A DNA stretch of 64,000 nucleotides from Bolinopsis microptera. Its lineage: Eukaryota; Ctenophora; Tentaculata; Lobata; Bolinopsidae. The notes under the pieces were generated by a model. That model ran no database searches, was not told where the DNA came from, and was given only the letters and a program-made list of their open reading frames with translations. Shown piece by piece: positions 2,312-60,437 of the stretch (positions are counted from its first letter, which is position 1; every line of letters starts with the position of its first letter). The stretch covers positions 20,081,240-20,145,239 of the forward strand of contig NC_087074.1 in the NCBI RefSeq assembly GCF_026151205.1, written 5' to 3'. The position numbers and the translations under genes were made by a program.

Positions 2312-2390
2312 AACGGGGACCTAATTGAAGGCATTGCCGCCACTACGAATGGGTATGTAACCCTGAATATAAGATACTTTAATGAATAAA
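2312..2390 (+). CDS. duplicated exon, copy A
   Basis: After the acceptor AAAAAATTTCAG the frame reads NGDLIEGIAATTNGYVTL and then NIRYFNE before TAA. It pairs with the exon at 2482: 17 of 18 leading codons give the same residue, although 13 codons differ in sequence. No clear donor follows. Copy A could be a short alternative terminal exon or a degraded duplicate. GGGTATGT within it (2350) could act as a donor but would cut the conserved part. Function unknown. Confidence 0.5.
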
Positions 2391-2481: not shown

Positions 2482-2648
2482 AACGGGGACATGATCGAGG
2501 GTATCGCTGCCACAACAAACGGCTACGTAACTTTAAAAGTGTACGAAAAGGAACCAGCTGCCCATGTCACTAGTGCCCCGGCTATAAAGAAAAAACGAGC
2601 ACCCCGAGTACCCGCAGCAACCACTGCACTAGCAAGGGAAAGTCCCTT
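2482..2648 (+). CDS. duplicated exon, copy B
   Basis: Bounded by acceptor AAAAAAAATTTCAG and a strong donor (CCCTT|GTGAGT). It encodes NGDMIEGIAATTNGYVTLKV and then a basic, Ala/Pro-rich stretch (IKKKRAPRVPAATTALARES). It is the fuller member of the tandem pair with 2312. The nearly silent pattern of differences between the two is strong evidence that this frame is or was translated. No known domain recognised. Confidence 0.6.
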
Positions 2649-7680: not shown

Positions 7681-7829
7681 ATGACAAGTACAGAAAGCAA
7701 CGTTGTTATAAAACCGATTGAAATAACTAAGCTTAAGGTAGAGGTGAAAACCTCATCAAGGAAGAGGATCTAAGCACCGTAGAATCATTAACTATTAAAG
7801 AAAACGAAGGATATCCCTCGATTATTGTG
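7681..7829 (+). pseudogene. first exon of a small-exon gene, frameshifted
   Basis: ATG at 7681 begins MTSTESNVVIKPIEITKLKV but hits a stop about 31 codons in. The neighbouring frame takes over (LIKEEDLSTVESLTIKENEG, YPSIIV) up to a strong donor GTG|GTAAGT. A one-base change near 7750 would account for this. Because the ATG, donor and composition are all good, it is probably a genuine or recently genuine first exon. The next exons would be 7975 and/or 8143. Confidence 0.45.
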
Positions 7830-7974
7830 GTAAGTTTGATTGATGGTATATTGTATTATTTACTCTTATTTGCTCTCGATCATCTTAATTGAATGCAATT
7901 TCTTCAAGGTTTTTTATAAACAATTGCATTCGTATTGGTCTGATATATGAATTATAAGTTGTACTCTCTAACAG

Positions 7975-8031
7975 GACTTAAAGACTGTTAGCGATTTATT
8001 ATGGAACAACGAGGAGCCGGCTGCAGACACG
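7975..8031 (+). CDS. tandem duplicate exon 1 (donor lost)
   Basis: Acceptor CTCTCTAACAG. The frame reads DLKTVSDLLWNNEEPAADT and pairs with the exon at 8143 (LQTISDMLWADGEEPVPDS). Its upstream intron end is nearly identical to that of the second copy. The homologous donor position has GG where copy 2 has GT (ACGGGGATTC against ACCGGTAATTC), so this copy may no longer splice out normally. Confidence 0.45.
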
Positions 8032-8142
8032 GGGATTCTATTTTCCAATATAGTTTAATATTTCCATTATTATTATCTAACTTTTAAAACAATCTCGAAA
8101 TAGTAAATATGATATATGAATTATAAGTTTACTCTTTAACAG

Positions 8143-8211
8143 GGGCTCCAAACCATATCAGACATGCTATGGGCCGACGGGGAAGAACCCGTGCCCGATT
8201 CCCGGCAACCG
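8143..8211 (+). CDS. tandem duplicate exon 2
   Basis: Acceptor CTCTTTAACAG and donor ACCG|GTAATT. It encodes GLQTISDMLWADGEEPVPDS RQP. It is acidic and short, with no known domain. The arrangement with 7975 resembles mutually exclusive exons. Confidence 0.5.
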
Positions 8212-8403
8212 GTAATTCTATTCTCGCTGTAATCCACTCGATAATATATATAACAAAGGGCAGACAAGTCAAGGATAGATATCAGTATTAGATTAATCCT
8301 GATCCAGCTTAGAAGAAAGGGATGTAACCGGATACTAATTATCTTATCAGAAGCTGGGGAAATGCTTGGAATTCCACTTTCAAAACTTATTCTCGAGGTA
8401 TAA

Positions 8404-19469: not shown

Positions 19470-20470
<1,001 letters not shown>

Positions 20471-31462: not shown

Positions 31463-31931
31463 CCCTATTCATACTTCCCAGAAGAATAAAGATTTGTAAT
31501 CGCGTCAGCTGCGGCTCATGGAGGGGATCACTTTGGAGGTGAAGAGCGTCCAAAGGCCGTTTGCTCGTCTGATTGAAGAGGTGGGTACTCTCCATATACA
31601 TAATACAGCTATATCCATGATACAGCTATCGACTGGAAATTTTTAATTTAACAACAACGGTAGAAGAGGGTTGAATATGTGGTGATCTTATTGAGGTTTT
31701 TAAAGTTATAAGTTGATCGATTACGGCCTGATCTGTTTGGAATGAGCAGATCCGGACTTAATATAGTATCAATAGCCCAGCATCTTGAACTGCAAGGACT
31801 GCAAAGACAAGCTTTGAGTCTCCTAGATTTGTTTATGTACATTTTTTAGATATTTATATATATATATAAACAAAAAACGTGAGTACAATGACAGAGTCCT
31901 AAATGTTGAAAAGGCTTCCTTCACGCCACTG

Positions 31932-32177
31932 GTGTTCAGTACTACAGGAGGAATGGCAACCGAGGCTTCACAGTTCCTAAAACATCTCGCTGAAAAGATC
32001 AGCCTAAAGAAAGGCCAACGGTATTGTGATGTGATGTCATTTGTCAGACGCAGACTGCGTTTTGATCTACTCAGAACCTGTATAATCTCTATCAGGGGGT
32101 ACAGAGGTACCAGAACCCTTCCACCCACAGCAATAAGTGATTTGGACCTTAACCTGATCAACACTCTTAAACCCTAA
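31932..32177 (+). pseudogene. retroelement C-terminal tail, copy 1
   Basis: The frame includes GGMATEASQFLKHLAEKISL, KGQRYCDVMSFVRRRLRFDL and LRTCIISIRGYRG. From memory, this GGM...F...LA..I..K.G..Y..V...R..LRF.LLR....IRG pattern ends many multicopy reverse-transcriptase polyproteins in cnidarian genomes. Only the tail is present. A second tail at 32435 has similar protein sequence but very different codons. Confidence 0.5.
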
Positions 32178-32328
32178 AAGGTCATGGAGTGCTTGTTGGA
32201 TGGTGGTCTAAACTGCTTTTTGTTGTGATGTGATTTAGTGGATTTTACATATATTATTACAAAGGGTTTTATTTTACCTCAGTTTTTAAATTTGTACCAT
32301 TTTTACAGAATTTTTATAATTATAATTA

Positions 32329-32388: not shown

Positions 32389-32434
32389 ATATTTTACTGT
32401 ACTATTTTATATAGTCCTATCAACCACTGGGGGT

Positions 32435-32653
32435 ATGGGAAGGGAAGCTAATAAGTTCTTCAAGAAATTAGCGGATAAACTATCTAGGAAATCAGGCCAA
32501 CGATATAGTGAGGCAATGACATTTATTAGGAAGAGAGTAAGATTTGACCAATTGAGAACAACAATCATAGCTCTTAGAGGAGAGAGAGGGTTGAAAAGTA
32601 GTAGTGCAGTAAAAATAGCAGTATTAGATATAAATTTGGAGCCAGTTCTTTAA
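32435..32653 (+). pseudogene. retroelement C-terminal tail, copy 2
   Basis: GGMGREANKFFKKLADKLSR, SGQRYSEAMTFIRKRVRFDQ and LRTTIIALRGERG. It is AT-rich in codon choice and is followed by the same 3' repeat (32724-32783). It is probably the 3' end of a second, diverged element. Confidence 0.5.
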
Positions 32654-33258
32654 ACTGGTTTAATTATACTACTTAAAGGGTGTTTATAAATTTTATTTAG
32701 TTTTCTATTGAATTTATATTGAATTTTTATATAGGGTAATTGTTATATTATGTGTATATTGTTTGAATAATTTTTTTATTTAAGGACGAAATGATCCCAT
32801 GGGGGACTCCCAACCCACCAAGCAAGATCCATTTTGGTCTACTTGCTGTGAGGTGTCTCAGCTACATGGGCTGGGGGTCCCCCACCCCTTTTTCAGTATC
32901 TAATATAGATGCAGTAGCAATGTGATCAAGAAAGTCCACAGTTCTTTTTTTTTCAGAGAGAGAGAGAAAGAGTGAGACCATATTGGAACAAGCTCCCACC
33001 AGATGTCAAAAATTCTTAGACAGTTTTAAGTTTTAAAGTTAAACTAATATGATTTAAGAAAAATATGATTGCAGTCAACCAGGGCTCATAAAAGCTTAAC
33101 AGCGCCTGGGTCCGTTCACCAACTGTGCTAATGTGAGTGGCGGTGTGGTAAAACCCATTTTAACAGCGTGAATATTTATCAAATACAAGCGCGCTAGCTG
33201 CTAGCATACTTGTATCATTTAATTTTAAATCAGATTTATTCGGATATATATTTATTGA

Positions 33259-41400: not shown

Positions 41401-41812
41401 CACTCTAGAAGAGTGGGTCTGGCAACCAGAATGGTAAGTCTACACTCTGTCAAGTGTCAACCAGAATTGGGGGTCTAAACTAGAATATAGGATAAATGGC
41501 AACCAGAATTGTGCGTCTGGAGTCTAGAGTCTAGAATAGTGGGTCCGGCAACCCGAAAGGTGGGTCTTCACTCAAGAATAGTGGGTCTGGCAATCGGAAT
41601 GGTGCGTCTACACTCTAGAAGAGTGGGGCTGGCAACCAGAATGGTAATTCTTCACTCTGTCAACCAGAATTGGGGGTCTATGAACTAGAATATAGGAGAT
41701 ATGACAACCAGAATTGTGGGTCTGGACTCTAGAATAGTGGGTCTGGCAACCAAAATGTTCAGTCTGCACTCTAATAGAGTGGGTCTGGCAACTAGAATGC
41801 AGACACGTAGCC
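38401..41812 (+). repeat. about 42 bp satellite with 128 bp higher-order repeat
   Basis: The base unit is about 42 bp (AGTGGGTCTGGCAACCAGAA then TGGTGGGTCTGCA...). From about 39170 to 40570 it is organised as a 128 bp trimer, and part of that as a 387 bp block repeated at 39635 and 40022. 42 being a multiple of 3, long frames appear on both strands but keep breaking. The left and right thirds are more diverged. Confidence 0.95.
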
Positions 41813-41999: not shown

Positions 42000-42900
42000 G
42001 ACAAGTACTGAGTTCCCCCCTAGCCCCCAACTTTGTATTATTGTGATGTCTGAAATTACAAATTTCTAATGCCAAATGTCGTCTGAAACACCCTATTTCT
42101 CAAAAATTTTCCGGGGGCTGCACCCCCAACTTTGTATTATCGCCGTACTACAAATTTCTTTAATGCCTAATTTCGTCTAAAACAAATAATTTCTAAAAAT
42201 TTTCTTGGGGGCTGCGCCCCCCCCCCCCCCAAGTCCCCCAACTTTATATTATTGTGATGTCTGATTATTACTGCGCCCCCCCAGCCCACCAACCTTGTAT
42301 TATTGTAATGTCTGATTATTGCTGTCCTACAAATGTCGTCTGGAACACCCTATTTCTCAAAAAGTTTCCGAAGGCCAGGGCTGCGCCTGCCTAGCCCTCC
42401 AACTTTGTATTATTGTGATGTCTGATTATTACTGTCCTACAAATTTCTTTAATGCCAAATGCCGTTTTAATCACCCTATTTCTCAAAAATTTTCCTGGGG
42501 GTTCGCTCCCCTAGCCCACCAACTTTATATTATTCTGATGTATGATTATTGCTGTCCTACAAATTTCTTTAATGCCAAATGTCGTCTGAATCACCCTATT
42601 TCTCAAAATTTTTCCGGGGTTGCGCCCCCCAGCCCACCAACCTTGTATTATTGTAATGTCTGATTATTGCTGTCCTACAAATGTCGTCTGGAACACCCTA
42701 TTTCTCAAAAATTTTCCGAAGGCCAGGGCTGCGCCCCCTAGCCCCCCAACTTTGTATTATTGTGATGTCTGATTATTACTGTCCTACAAATTTCTTTAAT
42801 GCCAAATGTCGTCTAAAACACATAATTTCTCAAAAATTTTCTGGGGGGCTGCGCCTTCCCCCCTCCCTAGCCAACCAAAGGAGCTTCGCCCCGGCTACGT
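42000..42900 (+). repeat. about 118 bp tandem repeat, 7-8 copies
   Basis: Units contain CAACTTTGTATTATTGTGAT, CCTACAAATTTCTTTAATGC, CCCTATTTCTCAAAAATTTT and a C-rich run. Copies differ by indels. Frames across it are repeat artefacts. Confidence 0.9.
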
Positions 42901-45330: not shown

Positions 45331-45579
45331 TGTTATTGGAATAAAACGACTTGATGATGATAAACAATCTGAAAGGAAAATATATCAAACATATAAAACA
45401 TATAAATCATATAAATGAATCCATAACAATTAGCAGGGTGAAATCAAACGAACGAAAAGGTGTGAGTAAACAATTAAATACTTAAACTCACAAACTTACC
45501 ACTGGGTAGATCTCATAAACATTGCTAAAATATAAACAGATTAGATAATTGAAATAATAAGAACTATTTCAATATAACA
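45331..45579 (-). repeat. copia 3' LTR
   Basis: 249 bp, TG...CA ends (TGTTATTGG...TATAACA on the plus strand). Identical to 50828-51076 by eye. Confidence 0.97.
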
Positions 45580-46143
45580 ATCTCCCGCCAAACAAAAGCC
45601 AAATATAAAAAATTGTCTACCCAGTCAAATGCTACAAAAACTACATATCTTCATGTACCCAGAGGAACAGTGATTGTTTAAATTAAAACTTTAGACTTTT
45701 CCCATGAATAAAATATTAAAATAATAATCATGCACAAACAACACACTTACAAGTTGGAAACAACTTGTTTAAAATAAATTAAAAACTTAAGGTTTTACAT
45801 TGAATTACAAATGATCTACTCAAAGTACAACTTTTAAAAGAACAATTCAATTCACTGGATACAACAGTTTTCATCTAAAATTCAGTTTATATTGAAACAC
45901 ATCTATACACTTTATGTAAACCCAAAATATATACTTTAAGTGGAAATCAACAATCTCCTCACAACCAGTCCTCTAAAACAAACCTCACTACTAGTCCATA
46001 ATTCCCACCTCAAAAAAAAATTGAGCCCACACAAATTAAACACGGTGCTTCAACACAACAGAACCAAAATTCTCCTGCAATCCAGTGAAGTGTCTGAACA
46101 GAAACAAAAGAGACTTTTCGAAGACTGATGAAGGAATTCTTTT

Positions 46144-49100
46144 CTACAGCTGGATGTTAAACTCTCCTGTGGTGAGGACATGAATCAATGACTCATTTGG
46201 AGCAGTAGTCTTGGTCAGACAATCAGCCAATTGCAGTTCAGTTGGAGTCCATTTTACTTCTGCAACTTCTTTTAATTCCAGTTGTTCTCTTATTGATGCT
46301 ACTTCTCGTCTCAACTTCAAATCATCAGCTTGGGAAGTTGAATTGATGTTATCCCATAGCGATTTGCTATCAGTTATCCCTATAATAGGAATAAGATCAT
46401 GATTAACTACATCATCTTTTCCAAGATTCATGATCTGCGTCAGAGTTTGCTTTAAATTAATTGCTTCATCTAGGCATTTACCAAGTGCTATACCCTCTGC
46501 ATAGATAATTGTTTTGGCAACTCTCTCTAGTTTTCTGCTACACCAAGACAGTGGTGCCAATTTCCCTTTTCCACTAAGAAATATAACAAAACTGCGAGTA
46601 CTAGATGTTTTGTCTGGTAAATTACTTAGTGCTGCGTCAGAAAATGCAAGGATCTTCAAGTCCCGAACATTACAGTGAGGTATACCGAAATGAATCTTTA
46701 CCGTTGTCTTATTCATTTTCTTCACAACTTTGTTGATCCTTAAGATATCCTTAATGTGAGGCTTGCTAGCCATCATGCTACATTCTAGTACAGGAAACCG
46801 AATATCAGGTCTAGATTGAGAGGATATCCATTGAAGCTTTCCTAGTAACTGTTGGTATAACTTTTTTTCACTTTGGTTGGCTTCGTGATCTGTCTGCTTG
46901 CTCCTAGCTATCGGCAATTCTATCGGTTTGATTCCTGACTGGTACGTGATTTGATCAATCACAATGCTGTTCCTGTCCTGGTTGATGTTCCAACCAACGT
47001 AAGTAAATGTACCTTTGTTTCTTGAACTGATCTCAAATTCTGCTGACAATTTCTCTATTATCTCTTTGTAAAATTTGTCGTTTCCTCCTATTAAAAAATC
47101 GTCAACGTGCAACACACAGAATCCACTCAGTTCATTTTCTACATGATATACATACACCGATGGGTCTAAGGTCAGAGGCTTACAACCATATTCAGTGAGT
47201 TTCTTTTTCATGGTTATGAACCATTTTCTTGCTCCATCATTTAAGCCATATATCGGTTTCTTTATCTTCCACACAATCTCGTTGCTTGTTCTGAACTCTT
47301 TAGGAGGGATCATGAGAACTATTCTATCGAGATCATTTGACTGGAGAAATGCTGCTCTTATATCTAAACTCTCCAATCTCCAGGCTTGAATATTACACAT
47401 AATGATGCACATTCTCATCACACTTTTCTGTGCGGTGGGTGAATCCGAAATCGGTGCGTCTACTTCCTGAAAGCCTCTTGCAACAAGTCGAAATTTGTAT
47501 GTCATCTCGTTTCTTAGCTGTTTCGATTCATTGACCCATCTGCATGACAACAAATCATGGTCTGGGTAGTCACTTTTATTGACTTCTTCATAAACACCAA
47601 ACCTTTTCCATTTCTCAATTTCTTTCTCTTTTGCTTGAATATTATCTCGGGGTTTTTCATCAACGTTTTGAATAAATATTTCCCATGATAACTGGTCTAT
47701 AATGTTAGTTATTTCTTGTGATGTGGCATCTTCTTTGATCCAATCCACTTCATCAAGATTTAATCCAGACATGGCCCCAGACCTCAAGTTCTTCACATTC
47801 CAGTAATTACTGATTGTTCCCGATTTCTTTCCCCCTCTATTAATGACCATTGCTACAACCCATTCTTTTTCTGTGTCAGACATCTTATAGAATATCTTAT
47901 CTCCAGGTTTAACAGTTGATTCCTTTTTTGTTTTTCTTTCAGTTTCAGCATCTGTTCTTCTTTCAATTTGGTTATCAGTTATCCTGATAGTCTTTTGCTG
48001 GTTTGATTCATCGATGACTTCTCTAGTGTTATCTGTAACATTCACTTCCTCACAGGCTTCACTAACACTTACTTCTCCCAAGACTTCATTAACTCTGTCA
48101 ACCTCAGAAACTTCACTTACTTTCTCTTCTTCAGATACCTTTTCAGTATCATCGTCAGACTCGCTGTCGCTTTCTGATGAGGTATCATTTTCTCTTGGTC
48201 TTCTGTCTTTGTTTGCTTTCAAGCACGTTACGTTATTGTTCACTAGCTTGTCATCAGCAACTCGTTTGAGAACTAGTTTACATGGGTGAACCTTGACTAA
48301 TCTACCTGAACCGGATTTAACCAATACTTGGCTCCCATCTTGTGCAATCACTTTGCCTGGTCCCTGCCAGTTCTTCATTTTCAGCCTTTTGTAGTAAACA
48401 GTATCCCCTGAGCAGAATCTTTTGTGAGTGCCTTCATAAACACGTCCCCTAAGAGCCCTTGCAATTCGATCAGAATTTTCTGCTTTAATGTATGCTAATC
48501 GTGCAGTACGTAAACTATTTAGGTGATCAGCAACTATATGGCTGGCTGTCTCCGAAGACAATGCAGGAAGTTTGTTGCTTGAATTTCCCGGTATGTGAGG
48601 ATTGTAACCAAAAACCAACTGATATGGCGAGAAGCCATAGATATTAATCAGTGAATTCTTAGCATGCACTGCCCACATAAGAGCAGTTTGAAGAGAACAG
48701 TCAACATCCTCTATAATCTTTTCTGTCATTTCACCGATCAGAAGATTGTGTCGTTCACACACTCCATTGGAGAAAGGGGCTTCAGCTGCTGTGCTTCTCT
48801 GAACTATATTAAAAGCTTCACATATAGGCTCCCATTTCTCACCCTGAAATTCTCCTCCGTTATCACTCAATATACGTTGGGGAGGCCCAAAAATTGATAC
48901 CCATATCATGAAAAACTTTTCGATTATTTCATTAGGGTCTTTACTCTTGACAACATGTGCTGCTGAGAACCTTGTAAGGTAGTCAATACAATGAAGTACC
49001 CATTTCCCTTTTATCAATTTTAAATCCATAGCTATCAACTCGTTAAATTGGTTTGCTAGTGGTAAGCACACTGTTGGTCTAGGGGATGCTCTTTGGTGTT

Positions 49101-50787
49101 TCAAACAAAAATCACAAGATTTCTGTAATAGTTCTAGTTCCTTCTCAAGCTCTTTATTGCTTTTTCCAGCATTTCTCATTAGTTTGATGATTCTACTGCT
49201 ACTTGCATGGGCAAACCTCCTATGAAGCTTTAAAGCCTTTTTCTTCACGTCTATGTTTGCTTCGTTTACACAGTCAGAAACAGTATTTACATATATCTCT
49301 TGGCTATTACTGCTAAGTGACAACGCATAGTGTCCACTTGATGTTGTTTCAAGGTCAAACATTTGCCCATCTACAGCAACCTTATCTTGTTCAAAATTTA
49401 TCTGCATGCCCATTGTCTTCATTGTTTTAAGGGACAATAATAAAGGAATATCAGTTTCAACAACATGGACTTCTAGCTTGATCTGTTTTTCACATAGTTT
49501 CACAGGAAGGTGAACCATCTTTAATGCTCTGAGTTTCCCTACACCAAATCGGAAAACAGTATCAGATGGGAATTCTTTTAGGTCCTTCTTTGTGTTCTCA
49601 TCCACACTTTCTATGTAACAATCATACCACTCCTTTCCACAAACGGTCTTGCTAGCTCCACTATCCAACACAGCTTTGTTAACTGTTTCTCCTACCAGCA
49701 GTATATCTTCCACTTCATTTCCAACATCAGATTGGAAAAAAACTTGTTTTTCTTGACCATTGTTTGTTTCTTCTTGAGAGTAGTGGAAGTTCCCATCATT
49801 TTCTGGTGACACATTACAATTTTCATCCTCTGCATAAAATGATTCTTTCTCATTGGATCTCCCTCTGTAATTTCGACTGTTTTGGTTATTTCTTGGTCCA
49901 TAACTCATAGGTTTTGAACCCAAGCTTTTTACTAAAGCTTGTAAGTCACGTAAGTGGGGACAGTCCTTAATCCAATGAGTGATATCTCCACAGCCATAGC
50001 ATTTTCTGTTGTTTCCTTTGTTTGGGTGGACACTGGGGCAATCTTTAATCCAGTGGTTTGATTCTCCACACCCATAGCACTGTTTATTGGCCGAATTTCT
50101 GTTCACATAAGGTCGTCTGTTTTGGCTTCCACTCTGATAAAATATGTCATTTTTTTCAGTTTCGTGTCCATAATGAACATTATGAATTCCATAGCCTGTT
50201 TCATTGTACATTGTTATTGGTTGATCATAATCCATTGGTTCCTCTTTTACCTGAATCATGTCTGTGCATTCACCTTTCACAGCATTCCTCCCAGGACATT
50301 TTTCTGTTATTCTCAATAGAGCATCTTTAGCATTAGCAAAAGTCATTGTGGAACATGATGAACGAGCAATCAGGTAATGATTGGGGAGTAAATTCGCAGC
50401 TCTGAGAATCTTGGTTGCTAGGACGATATCAGGTAAAACTACCTTTCCAGCTTTAAGTTCATTTATCTTCTGTTCATATATATGTATGAATTCTTTCATA
50501 TTTTGGTCTTGTCTTCTAAGCAATCGGTCAAATTCATCACATTTCATTGAAAGATCATTGTCCTCCACATAAACTTTATCCATTAAGGCTATCACTTCTG
50601 TAGAAGATACTTTATCCGGGTCTACTGCTAAAGCAATATCTAAAGCCCTTCCTGACATGTTAAGTATTAAAGCGGCTCCTCTTTTGTCTTGGTCAATATC
50701 AGTCACTTTTTCCCACAGGTTAACAAGTAGTTTCCATCGCGTATAGTTTGATCCATCAAACTTTGGCGTTGCATACTTCCGAGACAT
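46144..50787 (-). CDS. copia gag-pol polyprotein
   Basis: 1547 codons, one frame. The gag region (residues 1-230) has two CCHC knuckles at 237-250 and 263-276 (CYGCGESNHWIKDC, CYGCGDITHWIKDC). Aspartic protease DSGA at 375-378. Integrase has zinc-binding H522, H526, C558, C561 and the DD35E triad D588, D642, E678. Reverse transcriptase has LDIRAAF (D1142) and HVDD (1229-1230). RNase H lies in the last 200 residues (AFSDAA..., ITDSKS). The domain order protease-integrase-RT-RNase H defines the copia class. The start is the first ATG, 40 bases from the LTR. All key residues are present, so it looks autonomous. Confidence 0.97.
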   Translation of the reverse strand: MSRKYATPKFDGSNYTRWKLLVNLWEKVTDIDQDKRGAALILNMSGRALDIALAVDPDKVSSTEVIALMDKVYVEDNDLSMKCDEFDRLLRRQDQNMKEFIHIYEQKINELKAGKVVLPDIVLATKILRAANLLPNHYLIARSSCSTMTFANAKDALLRITEKCPGRNAVKGECTDMIQVKEEPMDYDQPITMYNETGYGIHNVHYGHETEKNDIFYQSGSQNRRPYVNRNSANKQCYGCGESNHWIKDCPSVHPNKGNNRKCYGCGDITHWIKDCPHLRDLQALVKSLGSKPMSYGPRNNQNSRNYRGRSNEKESFYAEDENCNVSPENDGNFHYSQEETNNGQEKQVFFQSDVGNEVEDILLVGETVNKAVLDSGASKTVCGKEWYDCYIESVDENTKKDLKEFPSDTVFRFGVGKLRALKMVHLPVKLCEKQIKLEVHVVETDIPLLLSLKTMKTMGMQINFEQDKVAVDGQMFDLETTSSGHYALSLSSNSQEIYVNTVSDCVNEANIDVKKKALKLHRRFAHASSSRIIKLMRNAGKSNKELEKELELLQKSCDFCLKHQRASPRPTVCLPLANQFNELIAMDLKLIKGKWVLHCIDYLTRFSAAHVVKSKDPNEIIEKFFMIWVSIFGPPQRILSDNGGEFQGEKWEPICEAFNIVQRSTAAEAPFSNGVCERHNLLIGEMTEKIIEDVDCSLQTALMWAVHAKNSLINIYGFSPYQLVFGYNPHIPGNSSNKLPALSSETASHIVADHLNSLRTARLAYIKAENSDRIARALRGRVYEGTHKRFCSGDTVYYKRLKMKNWQGPGKVIAQDGSQVLVKSGSGRLVKVHPCKLVLKRVADDKLVNNNVTCLKANKDRRPRENDTSSESDSESDDDTEKVSEEEKVSEVSEVDRVNEVLGEVSVSEACEEVNVTDNTREVIDESNQQKTIRITDNQIERRTDAETERKTKKESTVKPGDKIFYKMSDTEKEWVVAMVINRGGKKSGTISNYWNVKNLRSGAMSGLNLDEVDWIKEDATSQEITNIIDQLSWEIFIQNVDEKPRDNIQAKEKEIEKWKRFGVYEEVNKSDYPDHDLLSCRWVNESKQLRNEMTYKFRLVARGFQEVDAPISDSPTAQKSVMRMCIIMCNIQAWRLESLDIRAAFLQSNDLDRIVLMIPPKEFRTSNEIVWKIKKPIYGLNDGARKWFITMKKKLTEYGCKPLTLDPSVYVYHVENELSGFCVLHVDDFLIGGNDKFYKEIIEKLSAEFEISSRNKGTFTYVGWNINQDRNSIVIDQITYQSGIKPIELPIARSKQTDHEANQSEKKLYQQLLGKLQWISSQSRPDIRFPVLECSMMASKPHIKDILRINKVVKKMNKTTVKIHFGIPHCNVRDLKILAFSDAALSNLPDKTSSTRSFVIFLSGKGKLAPLSWCSRKLERVAKTIIYAEGIALGKCLDEAINLKQTLTQIMNLGKDDVVNHDLIPIIGITDSKSLWDNINSTSQADDLKLRREVASIREQLELKEVAEVKWTPTELQLADCLTKTTAPNESLIHVLTTGEFNIQL

Positions 50788-50827
50788 GGTGACAGTTCGT
50801 TTCTCTCCAACTCCGTTCTGCTACCAA

Positions 50828-51076
50828 TGTTATTGGAATAAAACGACTTGATGATGATAAACAATCTGAAAGGAAAATATATCAAACATATAAAACATAT
50901 AAATCATATAAATGAATCCATAACAATTAGCAGGGTGAAATCAAACGAACGAAAAGGTGTGAGTAAACAATTAAATACTTAAACTCACAAACTTACCACT
51001 GGGTAGATCTCATAAACATTGCTAAAATATAAACAGATTAGATAATTGAAATAATAAGAACTATTTCAATATAACA
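50828..51076 (-). repeat. copia 5' LTR
   Basis: 249 bp, identical to the 3' LTR. It would hold the element promoter. Confidence 0.97.
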
Positions 51077-51893: not shown

Positions 51894-52142
51894 TAACGTT
51901 TTTGCATAACACCCTAAATAGGGTTGGGCAAGAATAATAATAGGACCGGTTTTTATCCTGGCGAGGTTTTGTCTGTAGATGGAGATGAGGCTACCATAAC
52001 ATTAATTATGGCACCTGTCAAAGGCTCCACTCAGTTCTGGATTTGGCCAGCCAGGAAGGACACTTAAACACTCAGCAAACTATCAGTGCTAAAAGTACGG
52101 CCGAGATTTTCAAGTTAAGTCCTTAACTTATTAACACGAGTT

Positions 52143-52206
52143 TGATAAGTTAGTTGAACTGGGATACAGTCTAGAACAAGACGTACAAACTTCAAGAAAC
52201 ATCAAC
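52143..52206 (+). pseudogene. DKLVELG exon module, copy 1
   Basis: FDKLVELGYSLEQDVQTSRN, then a stop. It is one of five copies (others at 58086, 58979, 59563 and 60176). Confidence 0.5.
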
Positions 52207-52465: not shown

Positions 52466-52712
52466 GTAAGACATTATTATTACGGTAAGCAATATAATAT
52501 AATATATATATTCAGCTTCCAGTACCTCGATTGGTGACTGGTGTCACTCATACTGACCTCACTGATTGGTCACTGGTAAAAAATTCGGTGATTGAACAGA
52601 CATTAAAATGAGCGCTAGGGCCTCAAGAGTCCAATTAATGTCCGTTCAAATGAATTCCGATAATTATGTACGGTATAGTACGTATAAGTTATGACTCAAC
52701 AATTTTTTGCAG

Positions 52713-52808
52713 GTATCATGATCAACGATTAAAGTTATTATAACAGCTATTTCAATGCCAATGGTTCCAGCCACGGGCAACACTTGCAATATGAACCGAC
52801 CGGATATG
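52713..52808 (+). CDS. Tyr/Gln-rich exon, copy 1
   Basis: Acceptor AATTTTTTGCAG, donor GATATG|GTAAGT. The end of the exon reads SYFNANGSSHGQHLQYEPTG Y in the frame shared with copy 2 at 53166. The first part has a stop in that frame, so either an internal acceptor (TATAACAG, about 52742) is used or this copy is damaged. Confidence 0.4.
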
Positions 52809-53165
52809 GTAAGTAGTATTATTTCGAACCTTTTCCTGGGTTTTAATTTCCCCTCTTCCGATCTTATTCATAAAAAATCTAAAGTCTAAATCAAAATTTT
52901 AAAAATGCCATAATATGAACATATCCTTTTTCTGCAACCTTGCTAAAAATTTGGTAATTTTTTAGTAAGGAGATTTCGTCAAATATAAAATATGATATAA
53001 ATACTAAATTTAAGTAGAACAGCTAAATCTAGGACTTAATTTGAACGGACTTAATTTTAGCAGACAATAAAATGAAAGCTATATATAAGGGTCTCCAGTG
53101 TTCAATCAATGTCCGTTTAACTAAAGTCCGATAATGTGATACCTATAACTGAAAACATTTTGCAG

Positions 53166-53229
53166 GTTATGAAAAATCCGAATATGTATACTCCATATTA
53201 CAATCAGTATTCGCAACCGACCGGGTATG
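53166..53229 (+). CDS. Tyr/Gln-rich exon, copy 2
   Basis: Acceptor CATTTTGCAG, donor GTATG|GTAAGT. Reads VMKNPNMYTPYYNQYSQPTG Y (phase 0 in, 1 out). Joins in frame to the exon at 53341. Copy 1 ends in the same QYxxPTGYG. Low-complexity, prion-like composition. Confidence 0.5.
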
Positions 53230-53340
53230 GTAAGTAAAAAGAATCAAGTTTTCAAATTCATTTGCGAGCTGAAAATTGTCTTATCGATTTTGTAGTAGAT
53301 TTCGTCAACTATAAAAAATGATATAAATACTAAATTTCAG

Positions 53341-53422
53341 TTGATCATTTTATGCAATCTCTTCCTGGGGATATAGACATGGAAATTTCTACTACGCCTC
53401 TGAAGTCAACACCGAAGAAAAG
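53341..53422 (+). CDS. DIDMEI exon, copy 1
   Basis: Acceptor ACTAAATTTCAG, donor GAAAAG|GTAAGT, 82 bp, phases 1 and 2. Reads DHFMQSLPGDIDMEISTTPL KSTPKK. Paralogous to 58312-58390 with identical phases. The flanking introns are far more alike than the exons. Confidence 0.55.
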
Positions 53423-53578
53423 GTAAGTTTTGACAAAATTTAAAAAATGTTTTTTAGTTCTAACTTACTTTTTAAATTTATTTCAATCGAATGGGTTGAA
53501 AGTTTTGCTGTGATTTCTATTTTTTTGAACTTAGTTACTGGCATAAATATCAAAATATTTTATGTAATATATTTCAAG

Positions 53579-53675
53579 CGAGTTCGAAGCAATAGATGTA
53601 GATTTACAACCTACAGTTCCTACACCAACTAGAACTCCACTTATATATATAGGTTTAATAAACCTTCCCAACGAA
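53579..53675 (+). CDS. Thr/Pro-rich exon, copy 1
   Basis: Acceptor TATTTCAAG, donor AACGAA|GTAAGC, 97 bp. Continues in frame as EFEAIDVDLQPTVPTPTRTP LIYIGLINLPNE. Its paralogue at 58548 reads GWRTPLVSLEHLSEE. Confidence 0.5.
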
Positions 53676-53689
53676 GTAAGCTTTGTTTA

Positions 53690-54005
53690 TACATCTTACT
53701 ATATATAAAGCGAGACGATATATATTTATCCGTGCCATTTTACTGACACCACGGCATCAATTTTAACGCAAATTTCCGCAAAAACCGTAAAAGATATACA
53801 ACTGAAACCTTTTTGACTGGGTCAAATGCTTTAACGGCCTCCAAATCAGCATGAGAAAATAAAAAATTGGCCAAGAAATAGAAAGTTTTAGAGCCCAAAA
53901 TTTGGTACCCCAAGTGGTGTCAAAAACGCGAATTAAAGAGGTTAATAATTATTTTAGTCTCTTGAGTCTTGACACCATTTTAGGGTTATACGGGTTCCTG
54001 CTAGT
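53690..54005 (-). repeat. dispersed repeat, copy 2
   Basis: Reverse complement of 29405-29735. Plus-strand landmarks: CTATATATAAAGCGAGACGA at the left, ACGGGTTCCTGCTAG at the right. Confidence 0.85.
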
Positions 54006-54060
54006 AATATCTAAATCATAAATATACTCAAAATTAAATTACACTCCCTTTGCTTTCAGA

Positions 54061-54255
54061 ATGATGGAGAAAAACAGTCAGGGTGACAAGGTATCTATTA
54101 ATAAAGAGGTGCCTGTGGCGTACATAGCAGACTGTATTGAGTTTGTGACGAGGGTAATAGATTCCACACCCAAGAACACTCTGTTCGATACAGTGAATCA
54201 CGGTAAACTATGGACTGCTGCCTTCAAGGCTTCATTCAATATACACTTAAAATAA
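54061..54255 (+). CDS. exon of unrecognised protein (transposon-like neighbour)
   Basis: After TGCTTTCAG, MMEKNSQGDKVSINKEVPVA, IADCIEFVTRVIDSTPKNTL and DTVNHGKLW to TAA at 54253. In multicopy invertebrate proteins I recall a GKLW-x(n)-GDKG pattern; GDKGDG occurs in the next open frame at 54496. The intervening 200 bases would then be an intron or insertion. Confidence 0.4.
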   Translation: MMEKNSQGDKVSINKEVPVAYIADCIEFVTRVIDSTPKNTLFDTVNHGKLWTAAFKASFNIHLK

Positions 54256-54470
54256 TATGATTTTCACCACCATTGGCATTTACAGTGTAGATCGGTACAA
54301 ATCGGGAGGTAAATGAATATTATGAGCTGATACATGACCATTTGGGAGCTACTTATCAAAATGATTACGACACTTTATAATTCATATTTCGACATACTGA
54401 ACCATTAGCAGTTTGAGTTAGTAAGCTGCTGATTGCACGAATTGGTAAATTCATTGGAATAACTTTCAGA

Positions 54471-54687
54471 TCAGGTAGTGATAAAGTTTTCGGGAGATAA
54501 AGGAGATGGCAGGACAAATTTATCGTTCTATGTGATGAATCAGATTTCTCCGAATTCATGCGATAAACACTTTATGCTTATAATATATGGAGCAGGTGAC
54601 ACGAACTACAACTTAAAGTCAGCCTTTGACCTTATCAATTTGAAGTTAGTAAAACTAAATATTTTGTTCAATATTACATACACGTGA
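54471..54687 (+). CDS. GDKG-domain exon, likely transposon-derived
   Basis: QVVIKFSGDKGDGRTNLSFY, VMNQISPNSCDKHFMLIIYG and AGDTNYNLKSAFDLI. The signature GDKG-G-T--L---N---PNS ... D---NL is shared, from memory, with many uncharacterised multicopy proteins in cnidarians. Function unknown. May pair with the exon at 54061. Confidence 0.4.
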
Positions 54688-54874
54688 GCTCCATTAAATG
54701 CCCGTTACAAAATTTCCGCGTATCCACTTTTTGCGACTGTTTATCACGGTTCTTTTCAAGTGTCAAATGAATATCTAGCTAATTGTGAACATCAAAGAAG
54801 GTTGTGGATAAATCGAGGATGTTTATCCTATTAATCAGAAAAACCCTTGTTATTTATAATGGTTTATTATAATT

Positions 54875-54888
54875 TATACAACATTATT
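54875..54888 (+). repeat. LINE target-site duplication, left
   Basis: TATACAACATTATT, repeated at 57746-57759. Confidence 0.9.
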
Positions 54889-57745
54889 TTATTTTTTATT
54901 TTTTTTATTTTTTTTTTATTTTTTTATTTTTTTTCTTTAATGAGGAACCTGCCAAACCCCAGGACACCAGGAGGATACCACCGGCAAAGCGGCTAATAGT
55001 ACCCTCCGGTCTGTGTTGTACCGAAGAAGCTGAGTTAATCGATCAAGACTCGGCTTACCAGCCAAGAGGCAAAATCTGAGCGGCACCAAGGGTTCAGAGA
55101 GTGTCATTTCAGCTTCTCCGGTGCTGGATGCCCTGGGGTTTCACATGCGCCGTAGTAAAATAAATATAAAAACACACGCACACAATTTTATTTTTTTTTA
55201 TTTTTTTTTATTTTTTTATTTATTTTTTTTATTCTTTTAGATAATACGTCGAATAAAGTCAGTGGATATAGAGTAATAAAATGCACATAAGATGGAGAGA
55301 AAAAGGAGAGATACTACTGGTTTTAAATATGACTCTATATCAATACTAGTAGTGGAGATAACTCCACTGGCTACAACTTGTGAAATAAAGGGTAAAGGTA
55401 AGGCACGGCTGTAATTTCGAGAGAATAAATAAACAAGAGTGTATAGTGGATCCAGAACTTTGGGTATAAAATGGTCATCAAGGTATAACGTCTTTAAGGC
55501 ACCGTATAATATCCGGTTTTTCACCTAATAAGAAAAGCTTAAGATGTTTAAGATATCGCTCCCAGAATAGGGGTTCCTTGTTCTGGAAACTCCTTCCAAT
55601 AAACCAACAGCAAACCGAATTTATGAAGTTAACACTTTTATCTCTGTGATTTAAGCAAATCAAATAGTGGCGATATGGGTCGTCATAATTTGCGTCAATA
55701 TTCGATCTAATAAACAGATTTACTCCCTGTAGGAAAGAGCTTGTGGCTGGACAGTCAATAAATATGTGAGAGATAGTTTCGAGGTTGTGATTACATAACG
55801 AGCAATTTGGACTATCTTTTTCAATCTTCATTTTATATCTCATGTACCGACAAGTACTAATCCGGTGAAGGAGCTTATATTGGTACTGAATAAGTTTGAA
55901 GTTATTTGAGAAAGAAGTAAAAATATCCGTAAAAATACTAATCCAATCAATATCCGTTAAGGAGAGGTTAGCACTCCAGTTCCTCATTGGAGGAAGGGTG
56001 CTGGGATCTAAACGCTTAGACATGGTATCTCTGATGTTTCTACCTTTGATAGTGAGAGGAGTATCTCTAGAGTTGGGGGTATTCCTACCTCCCCAAAAGC
56101 GAAGTGAAAGTTGGGTATCGATAAATGTAATGTTACTTGTAAACGTATCGGTATTATTAAATCGACGTATTCCCAACTTTATACTCGCATATTGAGTCGA
56201 AGAGATTATACTACTTGTTTGGCCCCACTTTCTCAGAAATTGCTGAAAACTTAAGAGGTTACCTTCCTCTGAAACGAAATCAGAAAGATAGATGATATTT
56301 CTATCAATAAGAATATCGTTCCAGAGCTTGGAGCCAATGTCCGTTATTACGTCGCTTCCCCACACACAGTGGTTGACTGTACTCTTACTTGACTGTGAAG
56401 AAATAGACTTCCAAAGCTTATATTGGCGAAGAAGGTTAAAGGTAAAACCAGTATTCTTTAATGTGAGACAGTTTTCTATACACACAGTTGGTATATTTGG
56501 GTGTAAAAGCTGATTGATGATAATATTTTTCCAGGCATGTTGGAAATTAGGATCGATAACTTTTCCTATAAGTGACACTTTTAAACCTATAATAAAATCG
56601 TTAGTATAGAAGAGACCTAGACCCCCACATTCACGAGGAGAAGTAACAATATCACGTTTCAACTTATCCCTCTTACAACCCCACAAGAAGTGAAATATCA
56701 TAGTGTCTATTTTACTGATGGTGTTAGTATCAGGAGTTTCTAGTGGTATGATAAGGTAAGTGAACTGGGAAAGAATAAGAGATTTAATAATTGTACACTT
56801 TCCTATCAGAGTTAAGTCTCTCTTACTCCAGGTGTTGATAGCGGTGCTGGCGTTACTAAGTTTACTGTGGTAGTTCATTTTGCAGAGATCAGCTCCACTA
56901 GACGTGTTGTCGAACTTGACTCCTAATGCTGTAAACTCGTTAGCTACCATGTCTTCCCCGTATGTACTGGTAAGGTAATTTCGAAGACTAGTGTTGTCTC
57001 TGGTAGCTCCTAAAGGTATGCACTTAGTTTTACTGATGTTGGGCTTACAGCCTGAGTGCTGACCGAACTGGTTGAGCTCTAGGATAACTGCATCTACGCA
57101 AGCCTGGGAGGGATCCAGGTACAGATCCGTGTCATCAGCAAACAGACTCATGAGTATGTCGATACCATTAATGCTGAGGCCTTTAATACAAGGGTTATAC
57201 TGTAGCTTATTACTAAGTACCTGGGACACTAGGAGGAAAAGAATTGGGGAAAGGGGGCTCCCCTGATGGACGCCACGAAGTATGTGAACAGGGCTGCTAA
57301 GGTGTCCGTTAACGTTAGCGTAACTCATACCAGCGTGAAATGCCACTCTCACCAAGTTGATTAAATAATTTCCAAACCCCATACCTTCCAAGACACTGAA
57401 AAGAAACTTATGTTCGACCGAGTCGAAAGCCCGTTGGAGGTCGACCTGCATAATCATACCAGTATCCTCTTGGTTCTCATGGTAATGTTCTAAGGTTAGA
57501 TACATTAAGATCAGATTATCGCTGGTACTCTTCCCTTTTTGAAACCCGGATTGGGCTGTACTAATAAGTGTTGGAAGTGAACTTAAGATCCTATTTTTTA
57601 TAATATGAGTGAATATCTTATAGTCTACATTCAAAAGGGTGATTGGTCGCCAGTTCTTTATATAGTTTAACTCAATGGGGGTTTTAGGTTTCGGGATAAG
57701 TGTTATAATTCCTAGACGTTGTGAAGGTGACATATGAAGGTGACA
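54889..57745 (-). mobile_element. 5'-truncated Tx1/L1-like LINE
   Basis: Inserted on the minus strand between 14 bp target duplications. The 3' end is an A-rich tail of AAAAAAT-type repeats (54889-54940). The 3' UTR is 54941-55190. A second, internal A-rich run lies at 55190-55230. The 5' end is cut within the polymerase domain. A 12 bp duplication (GAAGGTGACATA twice) sits at the 5' junction. Truncation and target duplication indicate target-primed reverse transcription. Confidence 0.93.
55478..57733 (-). CDS. LINE reverse transcriptase (N-terminally truncated)
   Basis: 751 codons open. Contains NWRPITLLNVDYKIFTHIIK (motif 1), QSGFQKGKSTSDN, catalytic D98 in MQVDLQRAFDS, GVHQGSPLSPILF at 154-166 and FADD at 198-201, so the catalytic aspartates are present. 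A Cys/His cluster CSLCNHNLETISHIFIDC lies near the C-terminus. Sequence style fits the L1/Tx1 group. The endonuclease domain is missing, so it cannot be autonomous. The ATG at 57733 is created at the truncation junction and is not the native start. Confidence 0.92.
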   Translation of the reverse strand: MSPSQRLGIITLIPKPKTPIELNYIKNWRPITLLNVDYKIFTHIIKNRILSSLPTLISTAQSGFQKGKSTSDNLILMYLTLEHYHENQEDTGMIMQVDLQRAFDSVEHKFLFSVLEGMGFGNYLINLVRVAFHAGMSYANVNGHLSSPVHILRGVHQGSPLSPILFLLVSQVLSNKLQYNPCIKGLSINGIDILMSLFADDTDLYLDPSQACVDAVILELNQFGQHSGCKPNISKTKCIPLGATRDNTSLRNYLTSTYGEDMVANEFTALGVKFDNTSSGADLCKMNYHSKLSNASTAINTWSKRDLTLIGKCTIIKSLILSQFTYLIIPLETPDTNTISKIDTMIFHFLWGCKRDKLKRDIVTSPRECGGLGLFYTNDFIIGLKVSLIGKVIDPNFQHAWKNIIINQLLHPNIPTVCIENCLTLKNTGFTFNLLRQYKLWKSISSQSSKSTVNHCVWGSDVITDIGSKLWNDILIDRNIIYLSDFVSEEGNLLSFQQFLRKWGQTSSIISSTQYASIKLGIRRFNNTDTFTSNITFIDTQLSLRFWGGRNTPNSRDTPLTIKGRNIRDTMSKRLDPSTLPPMRNWSANLSLTDIDWISIFTDIFTSFSNNFKLIQYQYKLLHRISTCRYMRYKMKIEKDSPNCSLCNHNLETISHIFIDCPATSSFLQGVNLFIRSNIDANYDDPYRHYLICLNHRDKSVNFINSVCCWFIGRSFQNKEPLFWERYLKHLKLFLLGEKPDIIRCLKDVIP

Positions 57746-57759
57746 TATACAACATTATT
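57746..57759 (+). repeat. LINE target-site duplication, right
   Basis: Same TATACAACATTATT as at 54875-54888. Confidence 0.9.
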
Positions 57760-57769
57760 AAGAGCCACC

Positions 57770-58200
57770 TGACTACACTAGCATATTAAGTGTGATCTTC
57801 TTCTTATTCTGCTTTTTTTCTGTAGGATTTGTGGTGCAGTGTTCCATACTCGTCTATCATTATCTGGATGTCGAGGAAAGTTGACTTCCCACTGGTTTGT
57901 GTCCTCGTTTGAGATGGACTCTTCGGACCTTTTTCTTTGTGTCTCCGGTAGAATGAGACGTGTAGATCAGTATAGATAAATAAACAATAATATTCAGTAT
58001 GTTTCAGGATGGGACAAGGCCCACAACCACATCACCTTTCAGTTAGAAGAAGCAACCACCTGCACCCAGCACTGCACCTCGCGAGGTTGATAAGTTAGTG
58101 GAACTCGGAGACAGTCTAGAACAAGACGTAAAAACTACAAGAAACATCCTAACTATGAGGCACAGGTAATAATTAGGAATGTTTTGTTTAAGGGTAAGAC
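57770..58200 (+). repeat. about 890 bp tandem duplication, unit 1 part
   Basis: ACTACACTAGCAT...GTTTAAGGGTAAGACAGTTC is repeated at about 58660-59110 at roughly 95% identity. The DIDMEI-type exon at 58312 lies between. Confidence 0.85.
58047..58165 (+). CDS. DKLVELG exon module, copy 2 (intact)
   Basis: Acceptor CTTTCAGTTAG, donor GGCACAG|GTAAT. Reads KKQPPAPSTAPREVDKLVEL, then GDSLEQDVKTTRNILTMRH (39 codons, phase 2 out). It is the best preserved of five copies. Short amphipathic helix likely in DKLVELGDSLEQDV. Confidence 0.5.
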
Positions 58201-58311
58201 AGTTCTCTTCCGCTAGAACAGTGGTAAAAGAAGGTTTTATCGAAGTTTTTGTAATACATTTAGTAGTAGGTTTCGTCAAGAATGAAAAATGATATAAATA
58301 CTAAATGTCAG

Positions 58312-58390
58312 TTGTGCAGCCTCTCCCTGTCCCTGCAGATGATGTTCCCATGGAGATTCAGATAACACCGGTTAAGGGGCTAAAGAAATC
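58312..58390 (+). CDS. DIDMEI exon, copy 2
   Basis: Acceptor ACTAAATGTCAG, donor AAATC|GTAAGT. Reads VVQPLPVPADDVPMEIQITP VKGLKK. Same phases as 53341-53422; DxPMEI-TP-K is shared. Confidence 0.5.
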
Positions 58391-58547
58391 GTAAGTTTTA
58401 ACAAACTTAAAAAATGTTGTTTAGCACTAACTCACTTTTTAAGTTTATTTCAATCGAATGGGTGAAGATTTTGCTGTGATTTTTATTATTTGAAAACTTA
58501 GTTACTGGTATAAATATCAAAATATTTTATGCAATACATTTCAATAG

Positions 58548-58598
58548 GACCGGGGATGGAGGACTCCACTGGTATCGCTAGAACATCTTTCCGAGGAA
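58548..58598 (+). pseudogene. Thr/Pro-rich exon, copy 2
   Basis: Acceptor TTTCAATAG, donor GAGGAA|GTAAGT. The frame matching copy 1 is GWRTPLVSLEHLSEE, but it is not in phase with the exon ending at 58390. Either another acceptor is used or this copy is broken. Confidence 0.35.
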
Positions 58599-58659
58599 GT
58601 AAGTTTTGTTTATATTTATAATGGTTTATTATACAGATTCATTATTAAGAAACAATATT

Positions 58660-59110
58660 ACACTACAAGACTACACTAGCATGAAGTGTGATCTTCTTCT
58701 TCTACTTCATTCTGTAGGATTTGTGGTGCAGTGTTCCCTGCTCGTCTATCATTATCTGGGTGTCGAGGAAAGTTGACTTCCCACTGGTCTGTGTCCTCGT
58801 TTGAGATGGACTCTTCATACCTTCTACTTTGTGTCTCCGGTAGAATGAGACGTGTAGATCAGTATAGATAAATAAACAATAATATTCAGTATGTTTCAGG
58901 ATGGGACAAGGCCCACAACCACCTTTCAGTTAGAAGTAGCAACCACCTGCACCCAGCACTGCACCTCGCGAGGTTGATAAGTTAGTGGAACTTGGATGCA
59001 GTCTAGAACAAGACAGTCTAGAACAAGACGTAAAAACTACAAGAAACATCCTAACTATGAGGCACAGGTAATTATTAAGAATGTCTTGTTTAAGGGTAAG
59101 ACAGTTCTCT
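58660..59110 (+). repeat. about 890 bp tandem duplication, unit 2 part
   Basis: Second copy of 57770-58200. Confidence 0.85.
58934..59067 (+). pseudogene. DKLVELG exon module, copy 3
   Basis: Same exon as 58047-58165, with TAG at its second codon and an in-frame 15 bp duplication giving SLEQDSLEQD. A downstream acceptor (GAAGTAG) could avoid the stop. Confidence 0.45.
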
Positions 59111-59562
59111 TCCGTTAGAACAGTGGTAAAAGAAGGTTTCTACCCATTGATGTTTTATAAAAATTTAATTTAAACAAATACCAGCTTTTTGACAATTGAT
59201 AAACTTTGTCTGTCACATTTTCTGATAAATCAGTCTCTTAGTGAGCATTCCAGACTTGGAGTATCCTAATCTCCAGGTGGAACACGATAATATTCTTTAA
59301 TTAAACCTATCGCACCAGGGGATGAATCTCTCTTATTTTTCAGGATCATAGCCTAGCTATCTTTTTTCTACATGAAGTCGGAACAATCTTTTGATGATCA
59401 TCAGAGTAATCAGTAATGATCCAGAATCTCTTGAAACCTTTAATATAGTTCAGAATTATGTAGTGTAACGCGATGGAAGTATTTTAAGCGGGCATATCCT
59501 GTCCAAACCCAGGATGCACGACATAAAGAATTTGTTTTAACTTGTTTGTATGAAAAGCATCA

Positions 59563-59632
59563 ATAGATAAGTTAGTTGAACTAGCATGCAGTCTAGAACT
59601 AGACATGGACACTACAAGATATATTTCTGATT
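59563..59632 (+). pseudogene. DKLVELG exon module, copy 4
   Basis: DKLVELACSLELDMDTTRYI without clear splice sites. Confidence 0.35.
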
Positions 59633-60175
59633 TTTTATGAAATTAGAAATATATGTTGGTGTATATTGATGTTTTGGGACAAAGTGAGAGTCCCCAAACA
59701 TCAATTATATGATCGACAATTAGTCATCGCGCAACGAAATTTAGTCTTTCCGCAATTTACACGCCAAGTTAGGTTTCCATTGTTTTCAGTCTAAATTTAC
59801 AAACCTTTCATTTTGATATAATGAGGTACAAGTTGTTAATAATATTTTGTTTGTACTGGGATGTTCCACCGACTTGGCACCAGATAATTTAATTAAATTT
59901 GTTTTGATGAGGTTTATGTTGCCGTGACAGGGTTTTTATTGGACTGTTTTGATATGTTTTGTATGGTATTATGTTACTTTGGAAACCAAGTACTATTGCC
60001 TACAATAGATTTTACCTCGAGGAGTTTGGTTAATATTCAATTTTACTTTCGTCATAATGTACATATTTGGTTTTTGTTCAATCGACTGACATTGATTATA
60101 TAATCGACCCACTCAAAAGAGCGAAAACAGATTATTAATGAAATTAAAAATACTTATTATTCTGTTTATTTTATG

Positions 60176-60245
60176 GATAGATAAGCTAGTTGAACTCGCA
60201 TGCAGTCTAGAACAACGCATGGACATTACAAGATACATTTCTGAT
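60176..60245 (+). pseudogene. DKLVELG exon module, copy 5
   Basis: DKLVELACSLEQRMDITRYI lies inside a 67-codon frame (60138-60341). It shares TACAAGATAYATTTCTGATT downstream with copy 4. Confidence 0.35.
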
Positions 60246-60437
60246 TTATTATGCAATAAAAATACTTATTATTCTGTTTATTTCATGGAAAATATAATAT
60301 GTTTGGACGAATTAAATGATGTTGTTGAAATTATTTTGTAGAATATCTTGATATTTTGTCTCTATGTCTGATTTTCATTATAATATGTTTCCTCGCCGAC
60401 TTTCACGACTAGCAGATTACAAATTTATTTGTAAAAT

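Follow-up and report, generated by a model that had tools for sequence, protein, structure and literature searches.

We analysed a 64,000-nucleotide stretch of the genome of the ctenophore Bolinopsis microptera (NC_087074.1, positions 20,081,240 to 20,145,239; hereafter the window), focusing on a small-exon gene at 53 and 58 kb. Introns are normally the fast-evolving part of a gene. In this gene and in two unrelated families that touch the window, the introns of different copies were more alike than their exons. The exons given throughout are predictions from splice signals and homology, and the genome searched comprised 265 Mb.

Anatomy of the 53/58-kb locus

The features of the gene are as follows:
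52713..52808, + strand: exon A1, degenerate first-exon copy with an in-frame stop (alignment with exon A2; read by hand)
53166..53229, + strand: exon A2, MKNPNMYTPYYNQYSQPTGY (splice sites; alignment with the C5 copy)
53230..53340, + strand: intron 1, GT/AG (common to the C5 copy; tail common to copy 2)
53341..53422, + strand: exon B1, 82 nt (alignment)
53423..53578, + strand: intron 2, 91% identical to copy 2 (alignment)
53579..53675, + strand: exon C1 (alignment)
54061..54202, + strand: exon D, frame begins with ATG (DUF1280 match jointly with exon E)
54470..54648, + strand: exon E, DUF1280, Chapaev-type transposase (Pfam match)
58238..58311, + strand: intron 1 tail of copy 2 (alignment)
58312..58390, + strand: exon B2, 79 nt (alignment)
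58391..58547, + strand: intron 2 of copy 2 (alignment)
58548..58598, + strand: exon C2, broken frame (alignment; read by hand)

On the + strand, exons A1, A2, B1 and C1 are followed by D and E, placing A-B-C upstream of D-E. The locus is very probably the remnant of a broken small-exon gene that is associated with a Chapaev-like (DUF1280) transposase, part-duplicated on C3 and with pieces on C5 and on C2 of the assembly. Copy 2 (exons B2 and C2) begins within intron 1, without exon A, and sits between two copies of a 0.5-kb repeat. These are not intact genes: by hand reading, exon A1 has an in-frame stop, exon A3 of the C5 copy a frame break, and exon C2 a stop in its inherited frame.

Taken jointly, exons D and E matched PF06918 (DUF1280) at 49.8 bits (cut-off 25; E 4e-13) over profile positions 113-208 of 220, about 95 residues. 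Exon E alone gave 34.1 bits (E = 3e-8); exon D alone had no Pfam match, and neither did exons A-C. The exon E region was the sole DUF1280 match found genome-wide, and a partial one. A complete Chapaev transposase gene was not found: no continuation was found past exon E. No Chapaev terminal repeats were found either, the longest inverted repeat at the locus consisting of repeats that resemble miniature inverted-repeat transposable elements (MITEs). DUF1280 has been assigned to putative Chapaev transposases, in a clade with RAG1 (PMC3985635). Our locus resembles these transposases in the PF06918 match of exons D and E; it differs in the roughly 95 residues covered, the single genome match, the terminal repeats not found and exons A-C without a Pfam match. 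The reading phase from exon C to exon D does not fit as read, and A-C and D-E may be one gene.

Introns are more alike than exons at the locus

Alignment of exons B1 and B2 gave 45 identical and 23 different positions (23/68), with gaps of 9, 2, 9 and 5 nt and about half of the columns identical. Between the same two copies, 55 of 62 positions were identical in the intron 1 tail (89%; 7/62 differ) and 139 of 153 in intron 2 (91%; 14/153 differ). The exon excess over the introns was significant in Fisher's test, in which sites were treated as independent (P = 1e-5). The original prediction of introns about 90% and exons about 50% identical at 53341-53422 and 58312-58390 thus had its coordinates right and stands on these counts. 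It also held that the two exons share phases, and indeed both have a length of 1 mod 3 and identical phases. Exons B1 and A2 likewise differed from the C5 copy at 23/112 exon sites, compared with 17/209 non-coding sites (P = 0.002).

The C5 copy has exons A3 and B3 but no exon C; its intron 2 is split by about 3.9 kb, and similarity stops inside that intron. The 3.9-kb interrupting element has CGGGTA ends and a TA site, in intron 2 of the A3-B3 copy at L007 (C5:13958001-13968000, - strand), where what we take to be Mutator-like transposase fragments surround the copy. C2 carries a scrap of exon A. Exons B2 and B3 are mutually close and B1 stands apart from both; tandem duplication as the sole explanation is ruled out, since B2 resembles the C5 copy more than it does B1. 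The B2-B3 changes were 0.5 synonymous and 4.5 nonsynonymous in a tiny comparison, the only one that looks protein-diversifying.

The intron end had also been said to recur at about 52990 with no exon after it. It is present at about 52996-53013, where ATAAATACTAAATTTAAG ends a degenerate copy of exon A and intron 1 and no exon B follows, but its spelling had been given one base off. A genome search with a 24-nt intron motif (up to 3 mismatches) found 6 places, versus 1 for the reversed control: the three gene copies, the remnant at 52996-53013 and two weak ones. Introners would appear as one intron at many non-homologous sites; the intron matches that we read flank homologous exons or their fragments. 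The objection that this might be an ordinary transposon with intron matches outside genes holds in part. The elements do resemble transposons, but each intron that we read is bounded by homologous exons or belongs to a fragment of them.

A second family with mostly synonymous exon change

At 2.3 kb, the window contains two pieces of a second family, whose protein has about 117 residues:
2312..2354, + strand: truncated type I copy of exon 2
2482..2648, + strand: exon 2, type II

Mutually exclusive exons are ruled out here, as the first of the two pieces is a fragment of a type I copy that has been truncated. The protein had no Pfam match at E up to 1, no relative among solved structures at E up to 10 and a single match in PHROGs (E 0.1). 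DNA searching yielded 22 matches on seven chromosomes, and protein searching (E up to 1) yielded 66 at the exon level. We took 12 of the 22 DNA matches as loci, together with 9 further stretches, and aligned 18 copies; L054, L055 and L064 are outside this alignment. The pair table covers 13 of the 18 (L056, L065, L083, L087 and L088 are omitted), and values of about 0.5-0.8 for introns 0 and 2, which compare non-homologous sequence from truncated or rearranged copies, were unused. Synonymous (dS) and nonsynonymous (dN) divergence was calculated by NG86 for 18 chosen pairs, six of them type I versus type II.

At least four exon types can be distinguished among the copies. Type I and type II differed by 12-17% in exon 1 and by 26-29% in exon 2, compared with 2-5% in intact introns; pairs that include L058, in which the start of exon 1 is rearranged, differed by 22-25% in exon 1. 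Types III and IV differed from the others by 35-49% in exons and 8-17% in intron 1, with synonymous sites at or near saturation. In the six type I-type II pairs, dS was 1.2-1.7, dN 0.08-0.14 and intron 1 divergence (K) 0.02-0.05, the synonymous rate being 31-58 times the intron rate. Their dN/dS of 0.06-0.08 indicated mostly synonymous change, with the protein far better conserved than synonymous sites. Three type I copies showed fixed differences from two type II copies at 56/321 exon and 7/392 non-coding sites (fewer copies for introns 0 and 2), and the exon excess between L057 and L059 reached P = 2e-16. Within one type the excess was far weaker: of six pairs, L057 versus L058 had a dS/K of 23.8 and the other five had 0.7-4.8. 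Within-type dN/dS ranged from 0.3 to nearly 2 on small counts, a spread that would be expected of dead copies.

We compared the 18 bases on either side of each splice edge, summed over seven non-independent pairs. Differences numbered 48/126 at the exon 1 end versus 4/108 at the intron 1 start, 16/105 at the intron 1 end versus 41/126 at the exon 2 start, and 38/124 at the exon 2 end versus 7/108 at the intron 2 start. The exon 1 start showed no sharp step (intron 0 end 43/123 versus 50/96). Several copies have mosaic exons (L056, L062 and L063/L065, the latter two alike), and the type II copies in the window, in L055 and in L058 resemble type I in exon 3 and at the 3' end but not in exon 2. 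A protein match of 56% identity at C7:6301208-6301510 crosses the exon 1-2 junction and contains two TAA codons, which suggests an intronless copy of this family.

A third family, a zinc-knuckle gene and a host control

The pair at 8.0 kb belongs to a third family, with the following features:
7755..7829, + strand: exon X
7830..7974, + strand: conserved 145-bp intron
7975..8056, + strand: exon Y, first lineage
8144..8230, + strand: exon Y, second lineage (GLQTISDMLW)

Across six units, the 145-bp intron differed at 0-10 sites, whereas differences reached 27/75 in exon X and 16/30 over the opening 30 bases of exon Y; copies L070 and L071 are almost identical to each other. Between L067 and the second unit of L079, the intron differed at 0/144 sites plus two small indels, and the exons at 11/75 (X) and 15/30 (Y). 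The exon excess had a P of about 1e-5 in two pairs. Units wA and L067 differed at 18/75 sites in exon X but at only 1/30 in exon Y; they share exon Y and not exon X, and the exons therefore have separate histories.

The pairs noted at 2.3 and 8.0 kb in the original prediction are thus real; each comes from a different dispersed family, and the two families, though unrelated, share the inversion. The wider claim that introns are more alike than exons beyond one gene was borne out in three families touching the window. The proposed genome-wide process is supported in part: three unrelated multicopy families show the inversion, but the intron at the target is rare, with its six motif places. Diversification in the protein sense finds no support in the low dN/dS between types I and II of the second family, and the 53/58-kb gene, put forward as the undescribed system itself, proved to be a low-copy, broken, Chapaev-linked remnant instead.

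A zinc-knuckle gene with a CCHC motif, recognised by eye, is repeated in tandem at 3900-5560 and has related copies on C5; also by eye, the window and C5 copies show the same inversion tendency. As a host control, we inspected a tandem DEG/ENaC pair on C8: by eye, its exons align readily and its introns are unalignable. Host genes, in this one pair, need not follow the inversion.

Repeats and other elements in the window

The locus is interrupted by a LINE-like (long interspersed nuclear element) element, another repeat and MITE-like palindromes:
52592..52663, unstranded: MITE-like palindromic dispersed repeat upstream of exon A1 (high-copy matches, several on both strands at one place)
52843..52950, unstranded: high-copy dispersed repeat within the A1 intron (genome matches)
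53693..54003, - strand: repeat 86% like window 29407-29721
54890..57745, - strand: LINE-like element (RVT_1, zf-RVT) inside the first flanking-repeat copy (open frames, Pfam)
57745..58237, + strand: flanking repeat copy 1, 3' part (alignment)
58643..59139, + strand: flanking repeat copy 2 (alignment)

The inverted arms of the MITE-like repeat (52633-52666 and 53024-53057) are part of a dispersed palindromic repeat, which rules them out as terminal repeats of the gene. The LINE-like element is flanked by a 13-bp duplicated site, ATACAACATTATT, as read from the sequence. An exon-like stretch, DKLVEL..SLE..., has five local copies (52137-52203, 58082-58148, 58969-59050, 59566-59619 and 60177-60264), one of them with a 15-bp in-frame duplication.

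Elsewhere in the window, a Copia-like retrotransposon at 45331-51076 (- strand) is a recent insertion; its 249-bp ends are identical, and it has an open frame of 1558 codons. Long tandem arrays occupy 21196-22628 (64-bp period), 38406-41799, 42015-42878 and 19085-19471. A TTGGMG motif, noticed by eye, occurs in two diverged open frames at 31881-32180 and 32410-32655; a stretch of about 40 bp after each matches an inverted copy at 28.41 kb by 92-93%, and these frames possibly show the same exon/intron inversion in their 3' flank. We take the open frame at 25972-26370 (- strand) to resemble BLOC1S1.

Exchange between copies as the favoured explanation

The inversion is almost certainly real and shared by several families. 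It is the reverse of the normal rule, and exchange between gene copies is its most likely cause. We put at roughly 0.4 the probability that ectopic recombination and conversion homogenise the introns while old exon lineages persist. Under this explanation, dispersed transposon-like families would swap sequence among their own copies; ectopic recombination and conversion would hold the introns of a family near-uniform and reshuffle exons among copies, while ancient, strongly diverged exon lineages would survive. Exons that had already diverged would probably halt exchange tracts, and divergence would therefore step up at most splice sites. The mosaic exons and discordant neighbouring exons are traces of exchange between copies, and we therefore favour reassortment with intron homogenisation. 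We infer both that conversion is the homogenising force and why the exon lineages persist.

Several observations weigh against this explanation. Synonymous differences reach within a few bases of splice sites, and the edges are sharper than random tracts would leave them, unless diverged exons block the tracts; such steps also fit a process at the RNA level. The family copies are on different chromosomes, and L056, mostly type II across exon 2, carries a different exon 3. At the target, exons B2 and B3 differed at 5/70 sites and their introns at 6/190 (P = 0.17, no significant excess), and exons A1 and A2 at 11/59 with 19/98 upstream, again without an exon substitution excess. Copies were mostly detected by DNA similarity, which favours conserved introns and under-samples intron-diverged members, and the protein search for the second family lists members whose introns are outside the intron comparison. 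A pure rate difference would predict a constant ratio of dN to intron divergence, and dN/K was roughly constant, at 2.5-4.6 over twelve between-type pairs of the second family and about 3 for the three B exons, a pattern resembling a single history that ran at two rates. This rule fails in the third family, whose ratio is not constant, and we gave up the argument that a constant ratio proves a single history.

Selection on the mature mRNA is possible but on the doubtful side: silencing by endogenous small interfering RNAs (endo-siRNAs) or PIWI-interacting RNAs would favour any protein-tolerated change in the spliced transcript, while introns drift neutrally. The mostly synonymous change between types I and II (dN/dS 0.06-0.08), the step-up at three splice edges out of the four that allow a clear judgement and the much weaker excess among same-type copies (dS/K 0.7-4.8 in five of six pairs) are all consistent with it, as is the ctenophore Mnemiopsis, described as having no microRNAs and many endo-siRNAs (PMC6211395). 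Yet the mRNA also includes exon 3 and the 3' end, in which the type II copies in the window, in L055 and in L058 have not diverged from type I; in the deeper pairs, the final 18 bases of intron 0 show roughly exon-level divergence (43/123, seven pairs); synonymous change would have to run at 31-58 times the intron rate; and the discordant exon histories require exchange anyway. Marginally more doubtful is the full form of this idea, in which an RNA interference (RNAi) genome drives multicopy genes to rewrite their mRNA, bringing synonymous sites near saturation and leaving untargeted introns almost unchanged. Exchange templated by spliced RNA or its complementary DNA, with one lineage's spliced copy replacing single exons of another and the introns remaining, would account for divergence steps at splice sites, for exon-wise swaps with unchanged introns in the third family and for the putative intronless copy on C7. 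We consider it improbable: it imports variation but creates none and so needs diverged donors, and the intron tail was present in all 22 second-family DNA matches.

Strong constraint on the introns, through regulated splicing or an intronic RNA, with the exons being ordinary old paralogues, is very unlikely. The exons do look ordinary (dN/dS 0.06-0.08, near-saturated dS). In a test of evenness covering types I, II and III, intron 1 contained one block with hardly any change from type I to type III, and divergence along the intron was uneven in one comparison of these two types (P = 0.01) but not in the other (0.31). In type IV pairs, intron 1 is less diverged than intron 2. On the other side, intron 2 diverged evenly between types I and III (one comparison), no stable RNA fold was found in four intron stretches (z -0.97 to +1.66), Rfam had no match in four loci holding first- and second-family introns, and three unrelated families would each need such constraint. 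Ordinary duplication and decay, with exon divergence arising by chance or misalignment, is hardly credible. The broken copies at 53 and 58 kb, flanked by a duplicated 0.5-kb repeat, would suit it, as would the B2-B3 (P = 0.17) and A1-A2 comparisons without significant excess. For the pattern as a whole it is refuted by the exon excess at the target (1e-5), in copy 1 versus the C5 copy (0.002), in L057 versus L059 (2e-16) and in two third-family pairs (about 1e-5); moreover, B2 is no simple tandem copy, since the C5 copy is nearer to it than B1 is.

Relation to known systems

In primate L/M opsin genes, exon divergence, both synonymous and nonsynonymous, exceeds intron divergence, and conversion tracts are mostly intronic (PMC3213168). 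The families here show the same signature, exon divergence exceeding intron divergence with synonymous sites included, and conversion, the explanation given for the opsins, may apply to them too. The opsins form a single array of two gene types, which are kept distinct for a known reason at the protein level, whereas our families are dispersed, multicopy and transposon-like, with synonymous sites near saturation and a stronger effect, in three families. Snake three-finger toxins undergo accelerated segment switch in exons: introns are over 85% alike while exons differ radically by segment, by a mechanism described as not understood (PMC2711939). Those are venom proteins with change at the protein level; our best-sampled family is transposon-like and changes mostly at synonymous sites. 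Spider silk genes share with ours the homogenisation of introns in a repetitive gene family, but silk introns are homogenised within a gene and diverge between genes (PMC9779670). Schistosome micro-exon genes also have very short exons and are described as secreted (PMC10526429), whereas the exons here (82, 79 and 97 nt) are not whole codons, and we noticed no hydrophobic leader by eye in exon A2. Among the literature matches listed, there was no report of the inversion in transposon-like genes.

Families whose synonymous sites run 31-58 times ahead of their introns make it possible to test directly which forces homogenise non-coding DNA and which keep coding lineages apart. The inversion would mislead the dating of transposon copies by exon alone or by intron alone. 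If the RNAi explanation were true, the ratio of exon to intron rates would be a fossil record of silencing.

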